The position numbers and the translations under genes are program-made. Below are positions 41 to 13,191 of a stretch of 64,000 nt of DNA, piece by piece (positions within the stretch are counted from its first letter, which is position 1; each line of letters begins with the position of its first letter). The notes beneath the pieces are model-generated. The model saw nothing but the letters and a program-made list of their open reading frames with translations, made no database searches and was not told the origin of the DNA. The stretch lies in contig JAQXWB010000043.1 of assembly GCA_029225225.1 (NCBI GenBank), forward strand, positions 1-64,000, in the 5' to 3' direction. This DNA comes from Bacillota bacterium. GTDB taxonomy: Bacteria; Bacillota; Clostridia; Oscillospirales; Oscillospiraceae.

Positions 41-2113
41 TTATATCTTTTGTGATGTACACCGATCGTTTATGATCGCCTCTACGATGCCTTCTGCGGA
101 GATCTTTGGCGCAGTCAGAAATGCTTCAGCCGTATCATGGGAGAGCGTTTCCGCCGTAACCTTTCCAATACAGACGCAGCGCGTTCCCGTCGGTATTGCA
201 CCGTAGCGCTCAATGAACCGCTTCACGCCGCCGGAGCTGGAAAAAGTCAGGTAATCCAACGGCAGCAGCGCTTCACACTCCTCCGTTTCCATATCATAAA
301 GGGCGATGTCCCGCACGGAAAAGCCCGCATTACGCAAAGCCTCCGGCAACGCTGGCGTGCCGCTTGCGGAGCGGAGCAGTACGATTGATTCCTCTGGTTT
401 CGCTGCGACAATCAGCGCATCCGCCAGTGCTTCGCAGGTTGCGGTCATAGGGCAAAGCGTTGCGTGTAAGCCATAGCGTTCCAATGCTGCACCGGTCGCA
501 GCGCCGATTACGGCAAGCTTGTGCTTTTGTAAGCAGCGCGAGGTAAACTTTTCCTCCTCCATCCGACGGAAAAAGGTTGCTACGCCGTTAGCAGAGGTAA
601 ATACCAACCATGAAGGCGTATCGCACAAGACTTGAAAACCAAGCTCCGTCGGCAGCCCCTTTATGGCAAACCGCAGCACCCAATTTGCCTCCGCACCGAG
701 TGCGCGCAGGGCAGTCAGCTGTTTTTCCGCAACCTCCCGCGTCCCAGTAACGCCGACCCGCACGCCTTGCAGCTGTGCGGTGAGATGCATTGCCGCCACT
801 TCACCGATGACGATCACGGCAGGCGCGCGCACACCGGCGTCATTTGTCTTCTGCGCAATCTGACACAATGGTGCGCGCACCTGCATTGGGTATGGCGCAT
901 TGCCGCCGGAGAGCACCGCCGCCGGTGTGTTGCCGCTTTTTCCTGCCGCGATCAGTCGGGCAGTGATTGCAGGCAGCTGCCGCAAGCCCATCAAAAAAAC
1001 AAGTGTTCCGGATAGCTTTGCCAAAGTGTCAAGATCTTCGGGCAGTCCGTCCGGCGTGCCTGCGGTATGCGCCGTGACAATATGCACGCTCCGGCTCAGA
1101 CCGCGATGGGTCACGGGAATACCTGCCTCCGCCGGAATCTCGATTGCGGAGGGAATTCCCGGAACCTCCTGACACGGGATTCCCGCAGCGGTCAGAGCTT
1201 GTATTTCCTCGCCGCCTCTTCCGAAAAGATAGGGATCGCCGCCCTTTAAGCGTACCACACGCAAGCCGGAACGCGCCAAGTCAATCAGCCTTTGATTGAT
1301 CTCCTCCTGCGCTGCCGCATGTGCACCGCTCCGCTTACCCATGTAGAATCGCTGCGCGGATTCGGGCACGGCTTCCAATAACGCCGGATCGATCAGATCG
1401 TCGTAGACCACAGCCTGACACTGCCGCAACAGGCGCAGTCCGCGCACCGTAATGAGATCAGCTTTCCCGCAGCCAGCACCCACCAAGGCAACGCTGCCCA
1501 TTGGTAAGCCGCAAATGCAAGCTTCTGCCTCCTCCTGCGTCAGCGGCGCACCCTTTTCCATGCAGGCTTTGAATAAAGCACGGAACACATCCGCGCGTTT
1601 GCGTTGTTCCGGTATCCTGTTTTTCAGTATCGGACGCATGGACTCCAGCCAAGTAAGCATCTCGTCCAAGTTTTCCGGCAGCAGTTCCCGCAATTCTTCC
1701 TTAAAATAAGCGGCTGCGCTCGGACTGGCGCCGCCGGTCGAGATGCCTGCCGAGAACTCGCCCTGCTGCACGAGTGCGGGAAAGAAGAAGCTGCATTGGG
1801 AAGGCTCGTCCGCTACATTCACGGGAATATGCCGTTTTTGGCAGAGCATCGCAACCTCCCTGTTGACTGCCCCGTCATCCGTCGCGGCAATGACCATCGC
1901 AGGGCGAGGGCGAAGATCTGCCGCACGAAAAGCGCGCAGCCGCAACTTTACTTGAGGAAATGCCTCGATCTCCGGCAAAATACTTGGCGCAACCACCGTC
2001 AAGCTTCCGCTGTAAGGCAGCAGCTTTTGCAGCTTACGCAGCGCCACCTTGCCGCCGCCGACGATCAAGACGGGACGGTCCTTCAGCTCTATAAACATCG
2101 GAAAATACGGCAT
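41..2113 (-). CDS. Siroheme/uroporphyrin triple-fusion: precorrin-2 dehydrogenase (CysG-N/Met8p-like) + uroporphyrinogen-III C-methyltransferase (CobA/SUMT) + uroporphyrinogen-III synthase (HemD)
   Basis: N-term MPYFPMFIELKDRPVLIVGGGKVALRK (NAD dehydrogenase of CysG); middle GSVALVGAGCGKADLITVRGLRLL...VVRLKGGDPYLFGRGGEE (SUMT); C-term GVRVGVTGTREVAEKQ...TSANGV...AVIGAATGAALERYG (HemD). Confidence 0.93.
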   Translation of the reverse strand: MPYFPMFIELKDRPVLIVGGGKVALRKLQKLLPYSGSLTVVAPSILPEIEAFPQVKLRLRAFRAADLRPRPAMVIAATDDGAVNREVAMLCQKRHIPVNVADEPSQCSFFFPALVQQGEFSAGISTGGASPSAAAYFKEELRELLPENLDEMLTWLESMRPILKNRIPEQRKRADVFRALFKACMEKGAPLTQEEAEACICGLPMGSVALVGAGCGKADLITVRGLRLLRQCQAVVYDDLIDPALLEAVPESAQRFYMGKRSGAHAAAQEEINQRLIDLARSGLRVVRLKGGDPYLFGRGGEEIQALTAAGIPCQEVPGIPSAIEIPAEAGIPVTHRGLSRSVHIVTAHTAGTPDGLPEDLDTLAKLSGTLVFLMGLRQLPAITARLIAAGKSGNTPAAVLSGGNAPYPMQVRAPLCQIAQKTNDAGVRAPAVIVIGEVAAMHLTAQLQGVRVGVTGTREVAEKQLTALRALGAEANWVLRFAIKGLPTELGFQVLCDTPSWLVFTSANGVATFFRRMEEEKFTSRCLQKHKLAVIGAATGAALERYGLHATLCPMTATCEALADALIVAAKPEESIVLLRSASGTPALPEALRNAGFSVRDIALYDMETEECEALLPLDYLTFSSSGGVKRFIERYGAIPTGTRCVCIGKVTAETLSHDTAEAFLTAPKISAEGIVEAIINDRCTSQKI

Positions 2114-2116
2114 GCT

Positions 2117-2884
2117 CTACACCTCCTTCGCAGTGCAATAATACTGCGCGCCGTGGTGCGTATCGACACGATGGACACCCACGCCGAATACCCGTTCCGT
2201 CACACCGCTTTCGAATACGGCTTCCGGCTTGTCACAGCAAAGCAGAACGCCCTGCTCAAAAACCGCGATACGATCCGCTTCTCGCAGCGCCAGCGGAAGA
2301 TCATGCAGCACCAGCACGACCGCTCTCCCCTCTTTTGCAAGCGTGCGCGCCGTCTGCATGGTTTGGAACCGGCGGTTGATATCTAAATAAGTGGTCGGTT
2401 CGTCCATAAAGACCGTCTGCGTCTCCTGCGCCAGCGCCATTGCCAAATATACGCTCTGCCGCTGACCGCCGCTGAGGCAAGTGACATCGGTATTCTCGTG
2501 CTCTCTGCTTCCCGTCGCGTCCATTGCTCTGCGCGCAATGGCATAGTCCTGCTTGCAGTAGCGTCTCGGATAGGATAGATACGGGAATCTGCCGTGCAGT
2601 ACCATACGCAGCGCTTGAATGGACGGCGTGTTGCGGCTTTGCGTCAGGAACGCCGCCTTTTGCGCGATTTCCTTCCGCTTCATCCGGCGTATTTCCGTCC
2701 CGTCATATAAAACCTCACCTTCCATTGCCTGCAGCAAGCCCAGCGCAGCCTTTAACAGCGTTGACTTTCCGCTGCCGTTGGGGCCGAGGAGCGCCAGCAC
2801 TTCGCCCGGCAGGAAATCCAACGACACATTCTTCACGACAGCTTTTCCGCCATAGCCTGCGGAGAGATTCTTTATTTGAATCAT
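2117..2884 (-). CDS. FecCD-type metallophore/cobalamin ABC transporter, ATP-binding protein
   Basis: Walker A GPNGSGKST, signature LSGGQRQ, Walker B VFMDEPTTYLD; start taken at MIQIKNLSAGYGG. Confidence 0.9.
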   Translation of the reverse strand: MIQIKNLSAGYGGKAVVKNVSLDFLPGEVLALLGPNGSGKSTLLKAALGLLQAMEGEVLYDGTEIRRMKRKEIAQKAAFLTQSRNTPSIQALRMVLHGRFPYLSYPRRYCKQDYAIARRAMDATGSREHENTDVTCLSGGQRQSVYLAMALAQETQTVFMDEPTTYLDINRRFQTMQTARTLAKEGRAVVLVLHDLPLALREADRIAVFEQGVLLCCDKPEAVFESGVTERVFGVGVHRVDTHHGAQYYCTAKEV

Positions 2885-3894
2885 GCGCGTCCTCCTCTCT
2901 GCCGAAACAAAAGCCAAAGGAAAAAGGGCGCGCCCGCGAACGCCAGCACGATGCCGACGGGCAGCTCAAACGGCGCAAACAGCACCCTTGCCAAGAGATC
3001 GCACACCGTAACGAAGAACGCACCGCCCAACGCCGAGGACACAAGCAGCGGCAAACTATCCTCTCCCAAAAAACGCCGCATGGAGTGCGGAACAATCAGA
3101 CCGACAAAGCTCAATAGTCCGGAAAAGCTCACCGCCGCACCTGCCAGCGCCGCAGCTAAGATCAAAAGAAGGATCCGCATCGGCTGAACGGATAGTCCGA
3201 GAGTCTGTGCGGTATCGCTCCCTAATCCAAGACGCTCCAACTGCTGCGACAGGGAGAAGATGATCACCAAACTGACCAAGATCATCCCGACTGCCGGCGC
3301 AAGCTGATTCATCGTGACCCCCGTAAAGCCCCCGATGCGGAAGTCTGAAACACCGTTTAACGCCTCCGGCACCAGTGTGACCACCGCGTCAATGCCTGCG
3401 CTGAACAGGGCGGAAACGGCGACACCCGCAAGCACCACGGTCGTGCGCGCGGCACCGTTGCGGCGTGATAAGCCCGTCACCAGCAGGACACCCGCCAGCG
3501 CGCCTCCGAAAGCCACAAAAGGGGTATATTTCTGTGCCAGCGGCGCAGTGGCGCAAACAACACCCACAGCCAAGCCGGCGCCGGAATTGACACCGATGAT
3601 ACTCGGAGAAGCAAGCGGATTGTTCAGAACCGTCTGGATCACGACGCCGGAGACCGCCAGCGCAGCACCCGCCAACAGTGCCGCGCAGGTGCGAGGCAGG
3701 CGGGTATAAAGCACGATACGCGTAGCAGTCGAACTGCGATCACGTCCGAAAAGCGCGTTCAGCACCTGCATCGGCGACATCTGCACCGACCCAATCCACA
3801 GGCTGAGCACCGCCGCAGCTAGTGTAAAAACGCATAGCCCTGCCAAGAAACAGCCTTTACTGCGCCGGGTAGAGAATATCCGCGAGCTGTTCAT
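2881..3894 (-). CDS. FecCD/BtuC-type ABC transporter permease
   Basis: RLPRTCAALLAGAALAVSGVVIQTVLNNPLASPSIIGVNSGAGLAV and FVGLIVPHSMRRFLG are FecCD family signatures. Confidence 0.92.
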   Translation of the reverse strand: MNSSRIFSTRRSKGCFLAGLCVFTLAAAVLSLWIGSVQMSPMQVLNALFGRDRSSTATRIVLYTRLPRTCAALLAGAALAVSGVVIQTVLNNPLASPSIIGVNSGAGLAVGVVCATAPLAQKYTPFVAFGGALAGVLLVTGLSRRNGAARTTVVLAGVAVSALFSAGIDAVVTLVPEALNGVSDFRIGGFTGVTMNQLAPAVGMILVSLVIIFSLSQQLERLGLGSDTAQTLGLSVQPMRILLLILAAALAGAAVSFSGLLSFVGLIVPHSMRRFLGEDSLPLLVSSALGGAFFVTVCDLLARVLFAPFELPVGIVLAFAGAPFFLWLLFRQRGGRA

Positions 3895-4804
3895 AGGCTT
3901 CCCCCCATCGAGCATTTGGTTTCAGATTATACAGATTCGGATCCATCACATAATAGCGTCCCTCCCGCACGGCGGTCAGGCTCCCCCACGCGGGATTGCA
4001 CAGAAGCGTCGTCTCCAAAACCTCCTGCGCGTCTGACGGATCGGCGCTTTGCAGCACAACGAAGATATCGTCCGGATCGGCAAGCAAAATTTCCTCCATG
4101 CTGAGCTGCTCTAACAAGCTGTTGTCCCTGTCTGCAATATTCTCGCAGTCCAACGCCGCCAGCATTTCCCCTAAAACACTTCCCTCGCTGTTTTTTACCT
4201 TGCAGGAGCTGCCGGTCACGCGGATATACAGCACGCTCGGTCGTGTGCCGTCCGCACGAAGCAGCGCATTCTCCACCTGCATCTGCACAGCGCTTCCGTA
4301 AATCTCATAGTTTTCCGCATTTCCCGTGATCTGTGTGCAAACCTTCAGCATCCGCAGATAATCGTCAAAGCTGTTCACGGAGAAGTAAGCGGCATTGATC
4401 CCCATTTGATCAAAGGTTTCCTCCAGCGCGACATTCCGATCCGTGCCGCAGCTTGCAAGGACAAGATCCGGCTCACAGGCAAGAAGCTGCTCAAGATTCA
4501 ACTCCTTCGCCGCGCCCAAATGCACGACATCTTCCCGCAGCGGCAGGTCATAATAGGTCCATGTAGCATCCGTTGCAGCGACGATCTGCTCCGCGCCGCC
4601 GGCAAGGCACCAGATATCCGCAAAGCTGGCGATCAGACAAGCCATCCGTTGCGGACGGTCAACCGTCACCTGCCGTCCTAAATCGTCCGTAAAGGTCACA
4701 GCAGTTTCCGAGTCCGCTTCCGACGCTGCCTCTAAATTCGTGCTGCCGCAGCCGCTCAGAAGCAGGAGGCAGCATAGTATCAAAATTAAAATCGACTTTT
4801 TCAA
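3857..4804 (-). CDS. Metallophore/cobalamin ABC transporter substrate-binding lipoprotein (periplasmic-binding fold III)
   Basis: Lipobox LLLLSGCGS; FTDDLGRQVTVDRPQRM...; operon with ATPase and permease. Confidence 0.9.
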   Translation of the reverse strand: MKKSILILILCCLLLLSGCGSTNLEAASEADSETAVTFTDDLGRQVTVDRPQRMACLIASFADIWCLAGGAEQIVAATDATWTYYDLPLREDVVHLGAAKELNLEQLLACEPDLVLASCGTDRNVALEETFDQMGINAAYFSVNSFDDYLRMLKVCTQITGNAENYEIYGSAVQMQVENALLRADGTRPSVLYIRVTGSSCKVKNSEGSVLGEMLAALDCENIADRDNSLLEQLSMEEILLADPDDIFVVLQSADPSDAQEVLETTLLCNPAWGSLTAVREGRYYVMDPNLYNLKPNARWGEAYEQLADILYPAQ

Positions 4805-4840
4805 GAGCTCTATCCTTTCTCTTCATAGGCAAAAATAAAG

Positions 4841-4926
4841 ACCGGTCACATGGACAAAAGGGCATACGATTCCTTTCCGGTGAAAAGAGATCGTTTCAAA
4901 GCCCTTCATCGTCCAATGCGATCCGG
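4841..4926 (-). ncRNA. Candidate structured 5' leader RNA of the ABC transporter/siroheme operon
   Basis: Nested complementary arms: accggtcacatggac/gtccaatgcgatccgg, aaagggc/gcccttc, acgat/atcgt; lies directly downstream of a consensus promoter on the minus strand. Confidence 0.45.
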
Positions 4927-4947
4927 CAGATTCATCTTAACGGCATT

Positions 4948-4976
4948 ATTGTAGCAGGAATTCGTGCTTTTGTCAA
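4948..4976 (-). promoter_or_regulatory. Sigma70-type promoter for ABC/siroheme operon
   Basis: TTGACA (4971-4976) - 17 nt - TACAAT (4948-4953) on minus strand. Confidence 0.7.
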
Positions 4977-5120
4977 CGCGGGAGCGGCGGCATTTCCTGC
5001 TTGTACATGCAAAAAAAGGAAAGGATTTTATGTGATTGCTTTTCGTATTGCTGTTGCGTTTCCACGCGACAATTGCTATAATAAAAAAGTAAAATCAGAA
5101 AAAGAAAAGGAGCAGAGGCT

Positions 5121-7679
5121 ATGAATGTCATTGTCATCGGCGGCGTGGCTGCCGGTACAAAGGTCGCAGCAAAGCTAAAGCGTCAGGATCGCAGCGCAAA
5201 GGTCACCGTTTATACCAAAAGCAAGGACATCTCCTACGCCGGTTGCGGGCTTCCCTACTATGTCGGCGGAAGCATCGAGACGCGCGAGGAATTGATCGTC
5301 AACACGCCCGAAAAGTACGCAGGACTGACGGGCGTGGAGGTTCGAACCGAAATGGAGGCTGTCGGCATCGATGCCGCCGCGAAAGCCGTCCGCTTTGCCA
5401 ACGGCGAGACCGTTACATATGACAAGCTCGTTATTGCTACAGGCGCCGTGCCCTTTGTTCCCAATGTCGCGGGCACCGAGCTGCGCGGCGTATTCACCAT
5501 GCGCACGCCGGACGACGCGATCAGCTTGCGTTCCTACATTGACGAAGCGCACTGCCGCAGCGCCGTTGTGGTCGGCGGCGGCTTTATCGGCTTGGAGATC
5601 GCCGAGAATCTGATGGCAAAGGGGCTGAAGGTCACCGTCGTTGATATGGCGGATCAGATCATGCCCAATCTGTTTGACGCAGAGCTGGCGGGATATCTCC
5701 GTCGCCAGCTACAGCGCAGGGGGCTGCGCATCGTCACGGGCGCAAGCTTGGAGGAAGTGCTGGGCAGCGAAAGCGCCACCGGCATCCGCACCAGTGTCGG
5801 CTCCTTTGAGGGCGATTTGGTGGTGCTTGCCATCGGTGTCCGCCCCGCCACCGCATTTTTGGCAGACTCCGGCTTAGAAATGAGCCGCGGCACCATCGTC
5901 GTAGACGAGCATCTGCGGACGAACTTAAATGATGTTTACGCCGTCGGTGATTGCGCACAGGTCTATAACCGTATTACCGGAAAAGCACAATGGTCTGCCA
6001 TGGGCTCCACAGCAAATATCACCGGTCGCTGCCTTGCCAAGAATCTGACCGGAGAGGATGCCGTCTACGGCGGATGTTTGGGCACCGGCGTTGTCAAGCT
6101 GGCAAGCGATCTGAACGCAGGCCGTACCGGTCTGACGGAAGCGCAGGCAAAGGACGCAGGCTTTGACGTCGTCACCGTGACCTGTGTAACGGATGACAAA
6201 GCCCATTACTATCCCGACTCTGCCACCTTTGTTACAAAGCTGGTCGCCGACCGTGGCTCGCATAAGCTGCTCGGCATTCAGGTCGTGGGCGCGGGCGCAG
6301 TTGACAAGATGGTAGACATCGCAGTTACCGGAATTGCCATGGGTGCCAAGGTTGAGGATTTTGACACGCTGGACTTTTCCTATGCTCCTCCCTTCTCCAC
6401 TGCCATTCATCCCTTTGTACAAGCCTGCTATATTTTGGAAAACAAAATGTCCGGCGCGTTTGAGACCTTCACGCCCGCCGAATACGCTGCTGGCAAAGCA
6501 CGAAGCTACCGTGTCCTTGACGCCCATCCCGCGCCCTCCATTCCCGGCGCAAAGTGGGTGGAACTGAGCAAGGTCAATGCACCGCTTGACGGCATCGACA
6601 AGGAGGACAAGCTTCTGCTGGTCTGTGCCAAGGGCAAGCGCGGCTATTTCCTGCAAAACCGTCTGAAAGCACTCGGCTATACCAACACCCGTGTGTTGGA
6701 AGGCGGCGCGTTCGTCAACGAAGTCAAGGTACAGTTCCAAGGCGGCAAGCTGCCTCCCGAGGAGATCAAGCGCGTCAAGGCGCTGGGCTGCTTGCAGGAT
6801 AAGCGCTATCCCGATGTATTCAATGTCCGCGTGATCACCCGCAACGGCAAGATTACCGCCGCAGAGCATCGCACCATCGCCGAAGCCTCCGAACGCTTCG
6901 GCTCCGGTGCAGTCACCATGACGACCCGCCTGACGCTGGAAATTCAGGGCGTAAAGCATGAGAATATCCAACCGCTGATCGACTTCCTGAACGAGCGCGG
7001 TCTGTCCACCGGCGGCACCGGCTCTCTGGTGCGTCCCGTTGTCTCCTGCAAGGGCACTACCTGTCAATACGGTCTGGCGGACACCTACGGTCTTTCAGAG
7101 AAGCTGCACGAGCGTTTCTATGTAGGCTATCACGGCGTGACACTGCCCCATAAGTTCAAAATCGCCGTCGGCGGCTGCCCCAACAACTGCGTCAAGCCCA
7201 ATCTGAACGATTTGGGCATCATCGGTCAGCGCGTACCGATGATCGACTTTACCAAGTGCCGCGGCTGTAAGAAGTGTCAGATCGAAGAGAGCTGCCCCGT
7301 CAAGGTCGCCAAGGTCGTGGACGGCAAGATCCGCATTGATCCGACCGTCTGCAACAACTGCGGACGCTGCAAGGGCAAGTGTCCGTTCGGCGCTTTGGAA
7401 GAGTACAAGGACGGCTTCAAGATCTACATCGGCGGACGCTGGGGCAAGAAGGTCGCCCACGGCATGCCGCTAACTAAGATCTTCACAAGCGAAGATGAAG
7501 TCATGGAGGTCGTTGAAAAAGCGATCCTCCTGTTCCGCGACGAGGGCATCTCCGGCGAACGCTTCGCCGACACAGTCGCCCGTCTCGGCTTCGACTATGT
7601 CAACGAAAAGCTCCTCTCCGGCTCCGTCGATAAGGCAGCCATCCTCCACAAAACCGTAAAAGGCGGCGCTACCTGCTGA
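5121..7679 (+). CDS. CoA-disulfide/NAD(P)H-persulfide reductase - rhodanese - sulfite reductase-like - 2x[4Fe-4S] ferredoxin fusion protein
   Basis: FAD N-term MNVIVIGGVAAGTKVAAKLKR with SYAGCGLPYYVGG; rhodanese segment LLLVCAKGKRGYFLQNRLKALGY; SiR segment VVSCKGTTCQYGL...VGGCPNNCVKPNLNDLGI; ferredoxin CRGCKKCQIEESCP...CNNCGRCKGKCP. Confidence 0.93.
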   Translation: MNVIVIGGVAAGTKVAAKLKRQDRSAKVTVYTKSKDISYAGCGLPYYVGGSIETREELIVNTPEKYAGLTGVEVRTEMEAVGIDAAAKAVRFANGETVTYDKLVIATGAVPFVPNVAGTELRGVFTMRTPDDAISLRSYIDEAHCRSAVVVGGGFIGLEIAENLMAKGLKVTVVDMADQIMPNLFDAELAGYLRRQLQRRGLRIVTGASLEEVLGSESATGIRTSVGSFEGDLVVLAIGVRPATAFLADSGLEMSRGTIVVDEHLRTNLNDVYAVGDCAQVYNRITGKAQWSAMGSTANITGRCLAKNLTGEDAVYGGCLGTGVVKLASDLNAGRTGLTEAQAKDAGFDVVTVTCVTDDKAHYYPDSATFVTKLVADRGSHKLLGIQVVGAGAVDKMVDIAVTGIAMGAKVEDFDTLDFSYAPPFSTAIHPFVQACYILENKMSGAFETFTPAEYAAGKARSYRVLDAHPAPSIPGAKWVELSKVNAPLDGIDKEDKLLLVCAKGKRGYFLQNRLKALGYTNTRVLEGGAFVNEVKVQFQGGKLPPEEIKRVKALGCLQDKRYPDVFNVRVITRNGKITAAEHRTIAEASERFGSGAVTMTTRLTLEIQGVKHENIQPLIDFLNERGLSTGGTGSLVRPVVSCKGTTCQYGLADTYGLSEKLHERFYVGYHGVTLPHKFKIAVGGCPNNCVKPNLNDLGIIGQRVPMIDFTKCRGCKKCQIEESCPVKVAKVVDGKIRIDPTVCNNCGRCKGKCPFGALEEYKDGFKIYIGGRWGKKVAHGMPLTKIFTSEDEVMEVVEKAILLFRDEGISGERFADTVARLGFDYVNEKLLSGSVDKAAILHKTVKGGATC

Positions 7680-10352: not shown

Positions 10353-10655
10353 ATGGAGAAAGAAGCTTGCTGCTGTGCAAAGACCAAAGAACGCACGGCG
10401 GAGGAATACCGCAGCCTGATCCACCGTTTAAATCGTATTGAAGGTCAAGTGCGCGGTATTAAAGGGATGCTGGAGCGCAACGCCTATTGTACGGATATCC
10501 TCGTGCAGTCCTCCGCAATCAGCGCGGCGCTGAATGCTTTTAATCGGGAGCTGCTTGCAAATCATATTCGCACCTGTGTTGTCGATGACGTTCGGGCGGG
10601 AAAAGACGAAGTCATTGACGAGCTGGTTGCAACGCTGCAAAAGCTAATGAAATAG
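10353..10655 (+). CDS. csoR: CsoR-family copper-sensing transcriptional repressor
   Basis: [28 protein letters not shown]...NHIRTCVV: conserved Cys-His-Cys ligands of the CsoR family. Confidence 0.92.
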
Positions 10656-10668
10656 AGGAGGTCAGAAT

Positions 10669-13191
10669 ATGCAACAATACTCTGTCACAGGCATGAGCTG
10701 CGCCGCGTGCAGCGCCCGTGTGGAGAAGGCGGTCCGTGCGGTCGAGGGTGTGACGGACTGTTCCGTCAGTCTGTTGACCAACTCCATGGGCGTGGAGGGC
10801 ACCGCCTCGGAGCATGCCATTATTGCGGCGGTAGAGGCTGCGGGTTACGGCGCCTCCCGAAAGGGTGAGCAAAAAGCTGCGTCACAAGAGGAGGACGCGC
10901 TAAAAGATCGAGAGACTCCCGCGCTGAAACAACGTCTGATCGTCTCGGTCGGTTTTCTTCTCGTGCTGATGTATTTCTCGATGGGGCATATGCTGGGGCT
11001 CCCCTTACCACGCTATTTTGAAGAGAATCATGTTGCCGTCGGACTTGTGCAGCTCCTTTTGTCAGGCATTATCATGGTCATAAATCAGAAGTTCTTCGTT
11101 AGCGGTTTTAAAAGTCTGAGGCATCGCGCGCCGAATATGGATACCTTGGTGGCTCTCGGCTCGATAGCTTCCTTCTTGTGGAGCGTTTACGCCCTCTTTG
11201 CCATGACGGCAGCGCAGGCACACAGCGACATGACTGCGGTCATGGAGTATATGGACGAGTTCTATTTTGAATCCGCCGCCATGATACTCACGCTCATCAC
11301 CGTCGGCAAGCTGCTGGAAGCGCGTGCAAAGGGCAAGACAACGGACGCGCTGAAAAGCCTGATGCAGCTCGCGCCGAAGACTGCCGTAATCCTGAGAGAT
11401 GGGAAAGAAGTCACTGTTCCCATTGAGCAAGTACGCAAGGGAGATCGCTATTTCGTCCGCCCCGGGGAAAGCATTCCCGTAGACGGCATTGTGTTGCACG
11501 GCAGCAGCGCAGTCAATGAAGCGGCGCTGACGGGCGAAAGCCTCCCCGTAGACAAGTCGGAGGGCGACCCTGTCTCCGCCGCGACGGTCAATCAGTCCGG
11601 CTTTTTAGAATGTGAAGCGACCCGCGTCGGAGAGGATACCACGCTCTCGCAGATCATCAAAATGGTCAGCGACGCGGCCGCGACAAAAGCGCCGATTGCG
11701 AAAGTCGCAGATAAGGTCTCAGGCGTTTTCGTTCCCGTCGTGATTGGTATCGCCGTCATTACAACTCTCATTTGGCTTTTGGTCGGAAAAGAGTTCAGCT
11801 TTGCGCTGGCGCGAGGCATCTCCGTGCTGGTCATCAGTTGCCCCTGTGCGCTCGGACTCGCAACCCCTGTTGCGATCATGGTCGGCAACGGCGTCGGCGC
11901 GAAAAACGGCATTCTGTTCAAAACGGCAGTCTCATTGGAGACGACCGGCAAGGTGCAGATCGTCGCGCTGGACAAGACCGGCACGATTACACGCGGCGAA
12001 CCGACCGTCACGGAGCTGGTGCCTGCCGAGGGCTGTACCGAGGAGGAGCTGCTTGCCGCTGCCTTTGCCTTAGAGCAAAAAAGCGAGCATCCTCTGGCAA
12101 AAGCGATAGTGCAGGCAGCGAAGGAACGGAAGCTGAAGGCCGAGGAGGTTGCGGACTTCCGCGCGCTGCCGGGAAACGGTCTGACCGCAAGTCTGAACGG
12201 CACTCCCCTATTCGGCGGAAGCCTTCGCTTTATCAGCAGCCGAGTCTCCGTACCGGAGGCAGTGCGCTTGCAGGCGGAGCGACTGGCAGCGCAGGGCAAA
12301 ACGCCGCTGCTGTTTGCCCGAGGCCCGCGCCTGCTCGGTATCATCGCAGTCGCGGATACCATCAAAGAGGATAGCCCGCAAGCCATCAAGGAGCTTCAGG
12401 ACATGGGAATCCGCGTTGTCATGCTGACGGGAGACAATGAAAAAACCGCCAATGCCATCGGGGCGCAGGCGGGTGTGGACGCGGTGATCGCGGGTGTACT
12501 TCCCGACGGCAAGGAGGTGGTCATTCGCACGCTGCAAAGCTACGGTAAGGTCGCAATGGTCGGCGACGGTATCAACGACGCACCTGCTCTGACCCGTGCA
12601 GACATCGGCATTGCCATCGGCGCAGGCACGGATGTCGCCATTGACGCCGCCGATGTCGTGCTGATGAAAAGCACGCTGCGTGATGTACCCGCCGCAATCC
12701 GTCTGAGCCGCGCGACCCTGCGAAATATCCATGAAAATCTGTTTTGGGCGTTTTTCTATAATGTCATTGGTATCCCGTTGGCAGCAGGCGTATGGTATCC
12801 GCTGTTCGGTTGGAAGCTGAATCCGATGTTCGGCGCAGCCGCCATGAGCTTATCGAGCTTCTGCGTCGTAACAAATGCGCTGCGGTTGAATTTCTTCCGC
12901 TTGCACGATACAAGGCACCGTCGGCGTATTGCGCCTGTTTCGTTAGACGCCGCCTTGTTAAACCGGAACACAAGCACGCGCAAGCTGCTTCAAATCGAAG
13001 GCATGATGTGCGGGCACTGTGAGGCAGCCGTCAAAAAAGCGTTGGAAGCTCTGCCGCAGGTCGAATCCACCGTCGCAGACTATCAAAAAGGAACTGCGAT
13101 TGTCACTCTAAACGCCCCGATCGACGACGGACTTCTTAAAAGCGCCGTTGAGGCGGAGGACTATACCGTGCATTCCGTTACCGCATTGTAA
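10669..13191 (+). CDS. copA: Cu+-exporting P1B-type ATPase with N- and C-terminal HMA domains
   Basis: [52 protein letters not shown]-terminal [15 protein letters not shown]. Confidence 0.95.

Follow-up and report, generated by a model that had tools for sequence, protein, structure and literature searches.

The locus considered here raises a simple question: when a flavoprotein reductase, a rhodanese and a siroheme-type reductase are encoded as one polypeptide, what passes between them? The window (the whole stretch of DNA analysed, 64,000 nt of a contig from a member of the Oscillospiraceae) contains, at 5121-7679 on the forward strand, a single ORF of 852 aa with an ATG start and no internal stop; the start fits alignments of homologues, in which M1 is invariant. 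A Pfam search of the product returned six domains, all exceeding their curated cut-offs: Pyr_redox_2 (residues 1-283, 2e-62), Pyr_redox_dim (329-429, 3.5e-18), Rhodanese (470-529, 1.1e-6), NIR_SIR_ferr (PF03460; 565-625, 1.3e-12, 47.7 bits against a cut-off of 24), NIR_SIR (PF01077; 634-831, 3.7e-29, 101.7 bits against a cut-off of 27) and Fer4_10 (707-755, 3e-6). These bear out, in order, the domains assigned in an earlier sequence-only reading (CoADR-type reductase, rhodanese, siroheme reductase and ferredoxin), and the active-site and cluster motifs that it named were all found in the ORF (SYAGC42GLPYY, C502AKGKRG, SC643KGTTC648, GGC686PNNC690 and two ferredoxin motifs). The same reading had counted four modules. 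All of the named domains are present, but both Pfam and the alignment with the F420-dependent sulfite reductase (Fsr) place the ferredoxin within the sulfite-reductase fold, as in Fsr; we therefore do not count it as a fourth module, and the protein appears to comprise three functional modules plus a C-terminal tail. AlphaFold modelled the whole protein with a mean pLDDT of 84.6 and low confidence at the tail, and the C-terminal 312 residues with a mean pLDDT of 81.1. The features of the gene are as follows.

5121-7679 (+): whole fused gene, 852 aa plus stop (ORF, Pfam, homologues)
5121-6440 (+): CoADR/persulfide-reductase-type FAD/NAD(P)H module, residues 1-440; C42 codon at 5244-5246 (Pfam, Foldseek 8a56/6pfz, invariant C42 and Y363, SYAGC signature)
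6468-6740 (+): rhodanese domain, about residues 450-540; C502 codon at 6624-6626; basic loop C-A-K-G-K-R (Pfam, invariant C502, loop comparison)
6756-7625 (+): predicted siroheme sulfite-reductase module of the Fsr-C/group III Dsr-LP type, residues 546-835 (PF03460, PF01077, Fsr 7np8/7npa, conserved residues)
7233-7400 (+): inserted 2x[4Fe-4S] ferredoxin, residues 705-760 (Pfam; eight Cys in 114/114 homologues)
7626-7661 (+): variable linker preceding the C-terminal motif (alignment of C-termini)
7662-7676 (+): C-terminal motif GGATC, residues 848-852, with C852 as the last residue (95/97 fused proteins; the tail tracks a CoADR-rhodanese partner)

In order to collect relatives, a pattern scan of genome contigs was used, which yielded 413 stretches encoding them. 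The best 80 of these 413 come from independent genomes and match all or nearly all of the length at 72-88% identity, so that chance, a frameshift or an assembly artefact can be rejected as the origin of the fusion. In total, 97 full or near-full-length fused homologues were collected (53-88% identity), mostly from gut Clostridia; the related stretches belong to Lachnospiraceae, Oscillospiraceae and other Clostridia, many of them from animal gut samples. Cultured isolates are among the carriers, namely Parablautia intestinalis (L067), Ructibacterium gallinarum (L131) and Flavonifractor sp. An100 (L141). At the level of the order, the sulfite-reductase module was found in 103 of 394 genomes, and in ∼24 of the 394 it lies in an open frame long enough for the fusion; a frame of fused size was also seen in one genome of another class. 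The fused gene was absent from the 16 genus mates searched and its distribution is thus patchy, a pattern that gene transfer or repeated loss would produce, whilst the homologues exclude a fusion unique to the source genome. One divergent member, locus L158 (5708-8239, 53% identity), has no cysteine tail and carries the altered sequences SRAACG and KPGYWP and the rhodanese sequence CNRGKG, as if its sulfur-transfer part were decaying. Literature searches confined to open-licence papers returned no description of the four-part fusion or of its tail.

Turning to the C-terminal half, its domains PF03460 and PF01077 place it in a redox family, and the last 297 residues match the F420-dependent sulfite reductase structures 7np8/7npa (E ~1e-38). 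Foldseek with the C-terminal model likewise gave 7npa (E=3.5e-21) and 7np8 as the nearest structures, followed by DsrAB. In the enzyme MjFsr, sulfite is bound by Arg355, Arg423, Lys460 and Lys462, and Arg388 is an assimilatory-type residue that is replaced by Thr in DsrA (PMC10229431). The first four align with R570, R638, K678 and K680 of the fused protein and the last, the assimilatory trait, with R603; all five residues are kept in 114 of 114 homologues, as are the siroheme-cluster cysteines 643, 648, 686 and 690. The cluster motif, C-x4-C...C-x3-C (CKGTTC, window 7047-7064), is one residue under the canonical C-x5-C of CX5CXnCX3C, a spacing common to the whole subfamily, with all four cysteines retained. 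The eight ferredoxin cysteines, which belong to the peripheral and additional [4Fe-4S] clusters, are likewise retained by 114 of 114 homologues, irrespective of a CoADR module; in 61 close relatives that have neither the tail nor an adjacent CoADR of the subfamily, these eight and all catalytic residues are intact. The siroheme domain, previously read as being of the nitrite/sulfite-reductase type, can therefore be narrowed by its Arg/Lys set, Pfam and the Fsr match to a sulfite-type site, and by residue criteria the predicted centre is assimilatory-like. The case for a predicted sulfite reductase is strong, and this is the only PF01077 protein in its own genome. Separately, the relative L247 (918-1853, +) has an in-frame TGA, with the remaining protein and the tail intact. 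Selenocysteine was rejected as an explanation, as the TGA replaces the codon of the sulfite-binding R638; the gene is either broken or wrongly sequenced at this codon.

Over its first 530 residues the protein matches the solved persulfide reductases 6pfz, 8a56 and 3icr, and the top Foldseek hits of the whole-protein model were 8a56 (CoAPR), 6pfz (NPSR) and 3ict (CoADR-RHD), in agreement with the likeness to NADH-dependent persulfide reductases that had been suggested for this half. An alignment of 49 fused proteins showed no variation at C42, Y363, Y421, C502 or any of the 12 cluster cysteines, and a preference of the FAD module for NADH is inferred from D175. The CoADR-rhodaneses linked to these sulfite reductases form a recognizable subfamily. 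Nearly all of them have SYAGC, where generic members have S[YF]ANC; their helix reads GVAAGTKxAAKLKR rather than GVAGGA[ST]AAAR[IL]RRLD; and their rhodanese loop is the basic C-x-[KR]-G-[KR]-R, as opposed to mostly C-[QH]-S-G-[LV]-R in generic members. These features are common to the linked proteins whether fused or separate. A C-terminal carboxylate or a sulfur oxyanion is a possible ligand of this basic loop. In the CoAPR of Enterococcus faecalis, the two cysteines lie 26.6 Å apart across protomers, and the CoA arm has been proposed as a persulfide shuttle (PMC9405070); by analogy, a C-terminal cysteine arm could extend such shuttling to the siroheme.

Such an arm is suggested by the C-terminus itself. 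The exact ending GGA[TS]C is found in 95 of the 97 fused proteins (one exception runs off its contig and the other is the divergent L158), behind a linker that varies in both length and sequence. Standalone sulfite-reductase proteins of ∼310 aa occur both with and without this tail, and in three operons (L181, L183 and L184) the tailed standalone enzyme adjoins a separate CoADR-rhodanese with 52-55% identity to the fused module. With neighbourhoods of further relatives gathered at order and class level, a partner CoADR-rhodanese of this subfamily, either fused or adjacent on the same strand, accompanied 38 of 44 tailed enzymes versus 3 of 70 tailless ones (Fisher p=2e-20 with fused proteins counted, a value that overstates independence, as both traits cluster strongly on the tree). 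Some first-round loci had been picked with the fusion or the tail in mind; the class-level top hits, taken regardless of tail, gave the same pattern. The three tailless enzymes with a partner are L247, whose tail lies behind the in-frame TGA, L252, which is fragmented at a contig edge, and L158. Of the six tailed enzymes with no adjacent subfamily partner, four are encoded no more than 3.2 kb from a generic CoADR-rhodanese gene; the other two have no such neighbour. Mapped onto a core-domain tree, the tail requires 15 changes and the partner 11, and on supported branches the two changed in the same direction in about three of five independent pairs and were never opposed; a sign test on these five pairs was not significant. 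Sequence and comparison thus establish the modules, their residues, the tail and its co-occurrence with the partner, and the habit of the cysteine tail of accompanying CoADR-rhodanese points to a putative sulfur (thiol) relay. An additional case is L226, on the reverse strand near a contig start: close to the fused L143, this standalone enzyme has GGAASL as its C-terminus in place of GGATC, and there is no CoADR gene within 6 kb, as if tail and partner had recently been lost together.

The genes upstream of the fused gene bear on cofactor and substrate supply, and are listed below.

41-2113 (-): siroheme synthase fused to uroporphyrinogen-III synthase (precorrin-2 dehydrogenase, SUMT, HemD; NF007922 CysG above cut-off, HEM4 E=8.6e-40)
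2117-2917 (-): ABC ATPase of the same importer as the next two genes, true start probably nearer 2884 (Pfam, related loci)
2881-3915 (-): FecCD permease (Pfam, related loci)
3857-4804 (-): substrate-binding lipoprotein, Peripla_BP_2, iron/heme/cobalamin type (Pfam; homologue beside the fused gene in 25/80 related loci, the best 80 of 413)
4805-5120: probable shared control region, an intergenic stretch with the divergent transporter genes on one side and the fused gene on the other (position only)

The siroheme synthase-HemD gene is thus divergent and lies upstream of the fused gene, beyond the importer; 11 related loci have a siroheme synthase in the vicinity of the fused gene. In about 21 related loci the substrate-binding protein-FecCD-ABC importer lies downstream of the fused gene, whereas in the window importer and siroheme synthase are divergent instead. 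Of 114 contexts of the sulfite-reductase subfamily, fused and standalone alike, 53 contained such an importer (in the window at 2117-4804, -). As it also follows many tailless standalone enzymes, it belongs with the siroheme module rather than with the fusion. Further along the window, at 10353-13191 (+), a CsoR-like small regulator is followed by a P-type heavy-metal ATPase, as judged from sequence only.

Other neighbours concern the source of the sulfur. A LysR regulator is the divergent upstream neighbour in 43 related loci; its identity as a YeiE orthologue was not established, the similarity being to LysR proteins in general. Of 45 tailed genes, 8 have yeiH nearby, as against none of 69 tailless ones, and for five fused genes the distance to yeiH is 44-92 bp; in Salmonella, yeiH makes cells resistant to sulfite (PMC12880088). 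CysK or O-acetylhomoserine sulfhydrylase was found near six tailless genes, four of them from a distant outgroup, and near no tailed gene. The genome from which the window derives encodes CysK and two Cys/Met-metabolism PLP enzymes; neither ATP sulfurylase (PF01747) nor the CysD/CysH family (PF01507) was found in it at 95% completeness, and sulfate assimilation was rejected as the sulfite source on these grounds. Taken together, yeiH, the CysK/sulfhydrylase context and the lack of sulfate-activation genes suggest sulfite that enters the cell from outside, or arises from organic sulfur or another inorganic form, to be detoxified or used, rather than sulfite from sulfate assimilation. The link to sulfite drawn in the sequence-only reading is supported.

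How, then, might the units be coupled? We propose, with confidence slightly short of even, a one-polypeptide sulfite-to-sulfide enzyme in which two catalytic units are joined by a sulfur relay. Reduced ferredoxin clusters would pass electrons to the siroheme-[4Fe-4S] centre, where sulfite would be reduced to zero-valent sulfur or sulfide; C852, on its flexible C-terminal arm, would take the sulfur as a persulfide and pass it to rhodanese C502 or directly to C42; and the FAD module would reduce the persulfide with NADH, releasing H2S. The free carboxylate of the arm could be met by the basic rhodanese loop, and the arm would be a built-in counterpart of DsrC for DsrAB, or of the CoA arm in CoA-persulfide reductases. 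The likely role would be the removal or use of sulfite not derived from sulfate. Zero-valent sulfur is reported to be the first product released by assimilatory sulfite reductases (PMC13188885), which would give the persulfide reductase a substrate. Against a relay, R603 suggests a full six-electron reduction to sulfide at the siroheme, for which no carrier would be required, and the tail, on which C852 would have to reach C502 or C42, is of low confidence in the AlphaFold model. The reactions, their direction and the passage through C852 are what we infer here. In its most specific form the proposal, which we put forward tentatively, is of a sulfite reductase with an encoded swinging arm, the -GGATC peptide of which would collect siroheme S0 and deliver it to the fused persulfide reductase.

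The same parts had been taken previously for a self-contained path bringing NAD(P)H electrons to siroheme by way of flavin and ferredoxin, and as stated this is not supported, given the intact residues of the 61 relatives without an adjacent subfamily CoADR. A direct electron wire from NADH through FAD and the ferredoxin clusters to siroheme, with the rhodanese and C42 as remnants or side activities, does have precedents in NirB and Fsr for the fusion of a flavoprotein to a siroheme module; the C-terminal half is most like Fsr, and the module has the additional [4Fe-4S] cluster that is the proposed flavin link in that enzyme (PMC3448663). Both clusters are, however, equally conserved in the 61 enzymes that have no reductase, whose electrons can therefore enter without it; C42, C502 and C852, which a wire would not need, are kept almost without exception; and no BFD-type [2Fe-2S] or rubredoxin-like domain linking the modules was found in the Pfam search of the fused protein. 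We consider such a wire doubtful, and the flavoprotein more likely to be coupled through sulfur than to act as an obligatory electron donor.

Conservation of all three catalytic sites would also suit a one-piece thiosulfate reductase, in which C502 would take the sulfane sulfur, C42, FAD and NADH would convert it to H2S, and the siroheme would turn the freed sulfite into a second H2S. This would account for the fusion of a persulfide reductase with a sulfite reductase, and is in keeping with the basic rhodanese loop C-A-K-G-K-R and with the failure to find sulfate activation in the genome. The tail, however, is not directly explained by it, the yeiH and LysR neighbours point to sulfite, and no thiosulfate transporter was seen beside the gene, making this reading improbable. 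Equally, the protein might be an ordinary sulfite reductase serving cysteine synthesis or detoxification, joined to a stock CoADR-rhodanese that clears persulfides, with the tail as a docking or assembly signal. Tailless relatives can indeed adjoin CysK and O-acetylhomoserine sulfhydrylase (L161), R603 is of the assimilatory type, and the genome has its CysK and two PLP enzymes; yet a docking tag would not require a near-invariant terminal cysteine, and the partner CoADR-rhodanese, far from being stock, belongs to a subfamily of its own, set apart by its altered active site and rhodanese loop, so that we regard this as quite unlikely. If the sulfur relay through C852 is true, a task for which Dsr-type systems need DsrC and a membrane complex, and persulfide reductases need CoA, would be accomplished within one soluble protein common in gut Clostridia. 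The tail also offers a way of testing whether what leaves siroheme enzymes is sulfide or zero-valent sulfur passed on to a carrier.

Surveys of gut hydrogen sulfide production target dsrAB and asrABC (PMC9016944). As the fused family scores far below the corresponding models, it would probably go uncounted, and we regard the enzyme as a candidate source of gut hydrogen sulfide. If active, it would convert sulfite to sulfide by a route that has been overlooked, does not draw on sulfate and is common in gut Clostridia.

By tests of membership (cut-offs, domains and motifs) the fused protein is not an AsrC, Dsr, Fsr, NirB or CoADR proper, although it shares traits with each. Like NirB, it combines a siroheme module with a pyridine-nucleotide flavoprotein at the N-terminus, but it lacks the BFD [2Fe-2S] domain, possesses C42, a dimerization domain and a rhodanese, and scores 243.6 bits against a cut-off of 578.35. 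The group III architecture is that of AsrC (PMC3448663), whereas the score is 94.8 bits against the TIGR02912 cut-off of 324.1 and neither AsrA nor AsrB is among the annotated neighbours. DsrAB has a related fold, and the idea of a mobile C-terminal cysteine taking sulfur from siroheme may be carried over from DsrC by analogy; here, however, one chain stands in place of DsrAB and a separate DsrC, R603 is assimilatory-type, the cluster motif is not CXnCCX3C, and the NCBIfam cut-offs for DsrA (89.8 vs 392.85 bits) and DsrB (91.1 vs 341.5 bits) are missed. The closest counterparts lie on either side of the fusion. The siroheme module, the inserted 2x[4Fe-4S] ferredoxin, the sulfite-binding Arg/Lys set and the assimilatory-type Arg are those of the C-terminal half of Fsr and of group III Dsr-like proteins; in contrast to Fsr, there is no FrhB/F420 domain (the N-terminal half being a pyridine-nucleotide flavoprotein), the spacing is C-x4-C and not C-x5-C, and a cysteine tail is present. 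The N-terminal 540 residues share fold and order with the CoADR-RHD, NPSR and CoAPR enzymes (Bacillus anthracis 3ict, Archaeoglobus fulgidus 6pfz and E. faecalis 8a56; TMt 0.88-0.92), including C42, the rhodanese cysteine in the same chain and the active-site Tyr residues, but the fused protein adds a sulfite reductase and the cysteine tail, differs in SYAGC, the helix and the basic loop, and misses the CoA-disulfide reductase cut-offs (381.7 bits vs 458 for PRK09564; 377.4 vs 578.8 for TIGR03385). The most fitting description is that of a group III Dsr-like sulfite reductase to which a specialised persulfide reductase has been joined.
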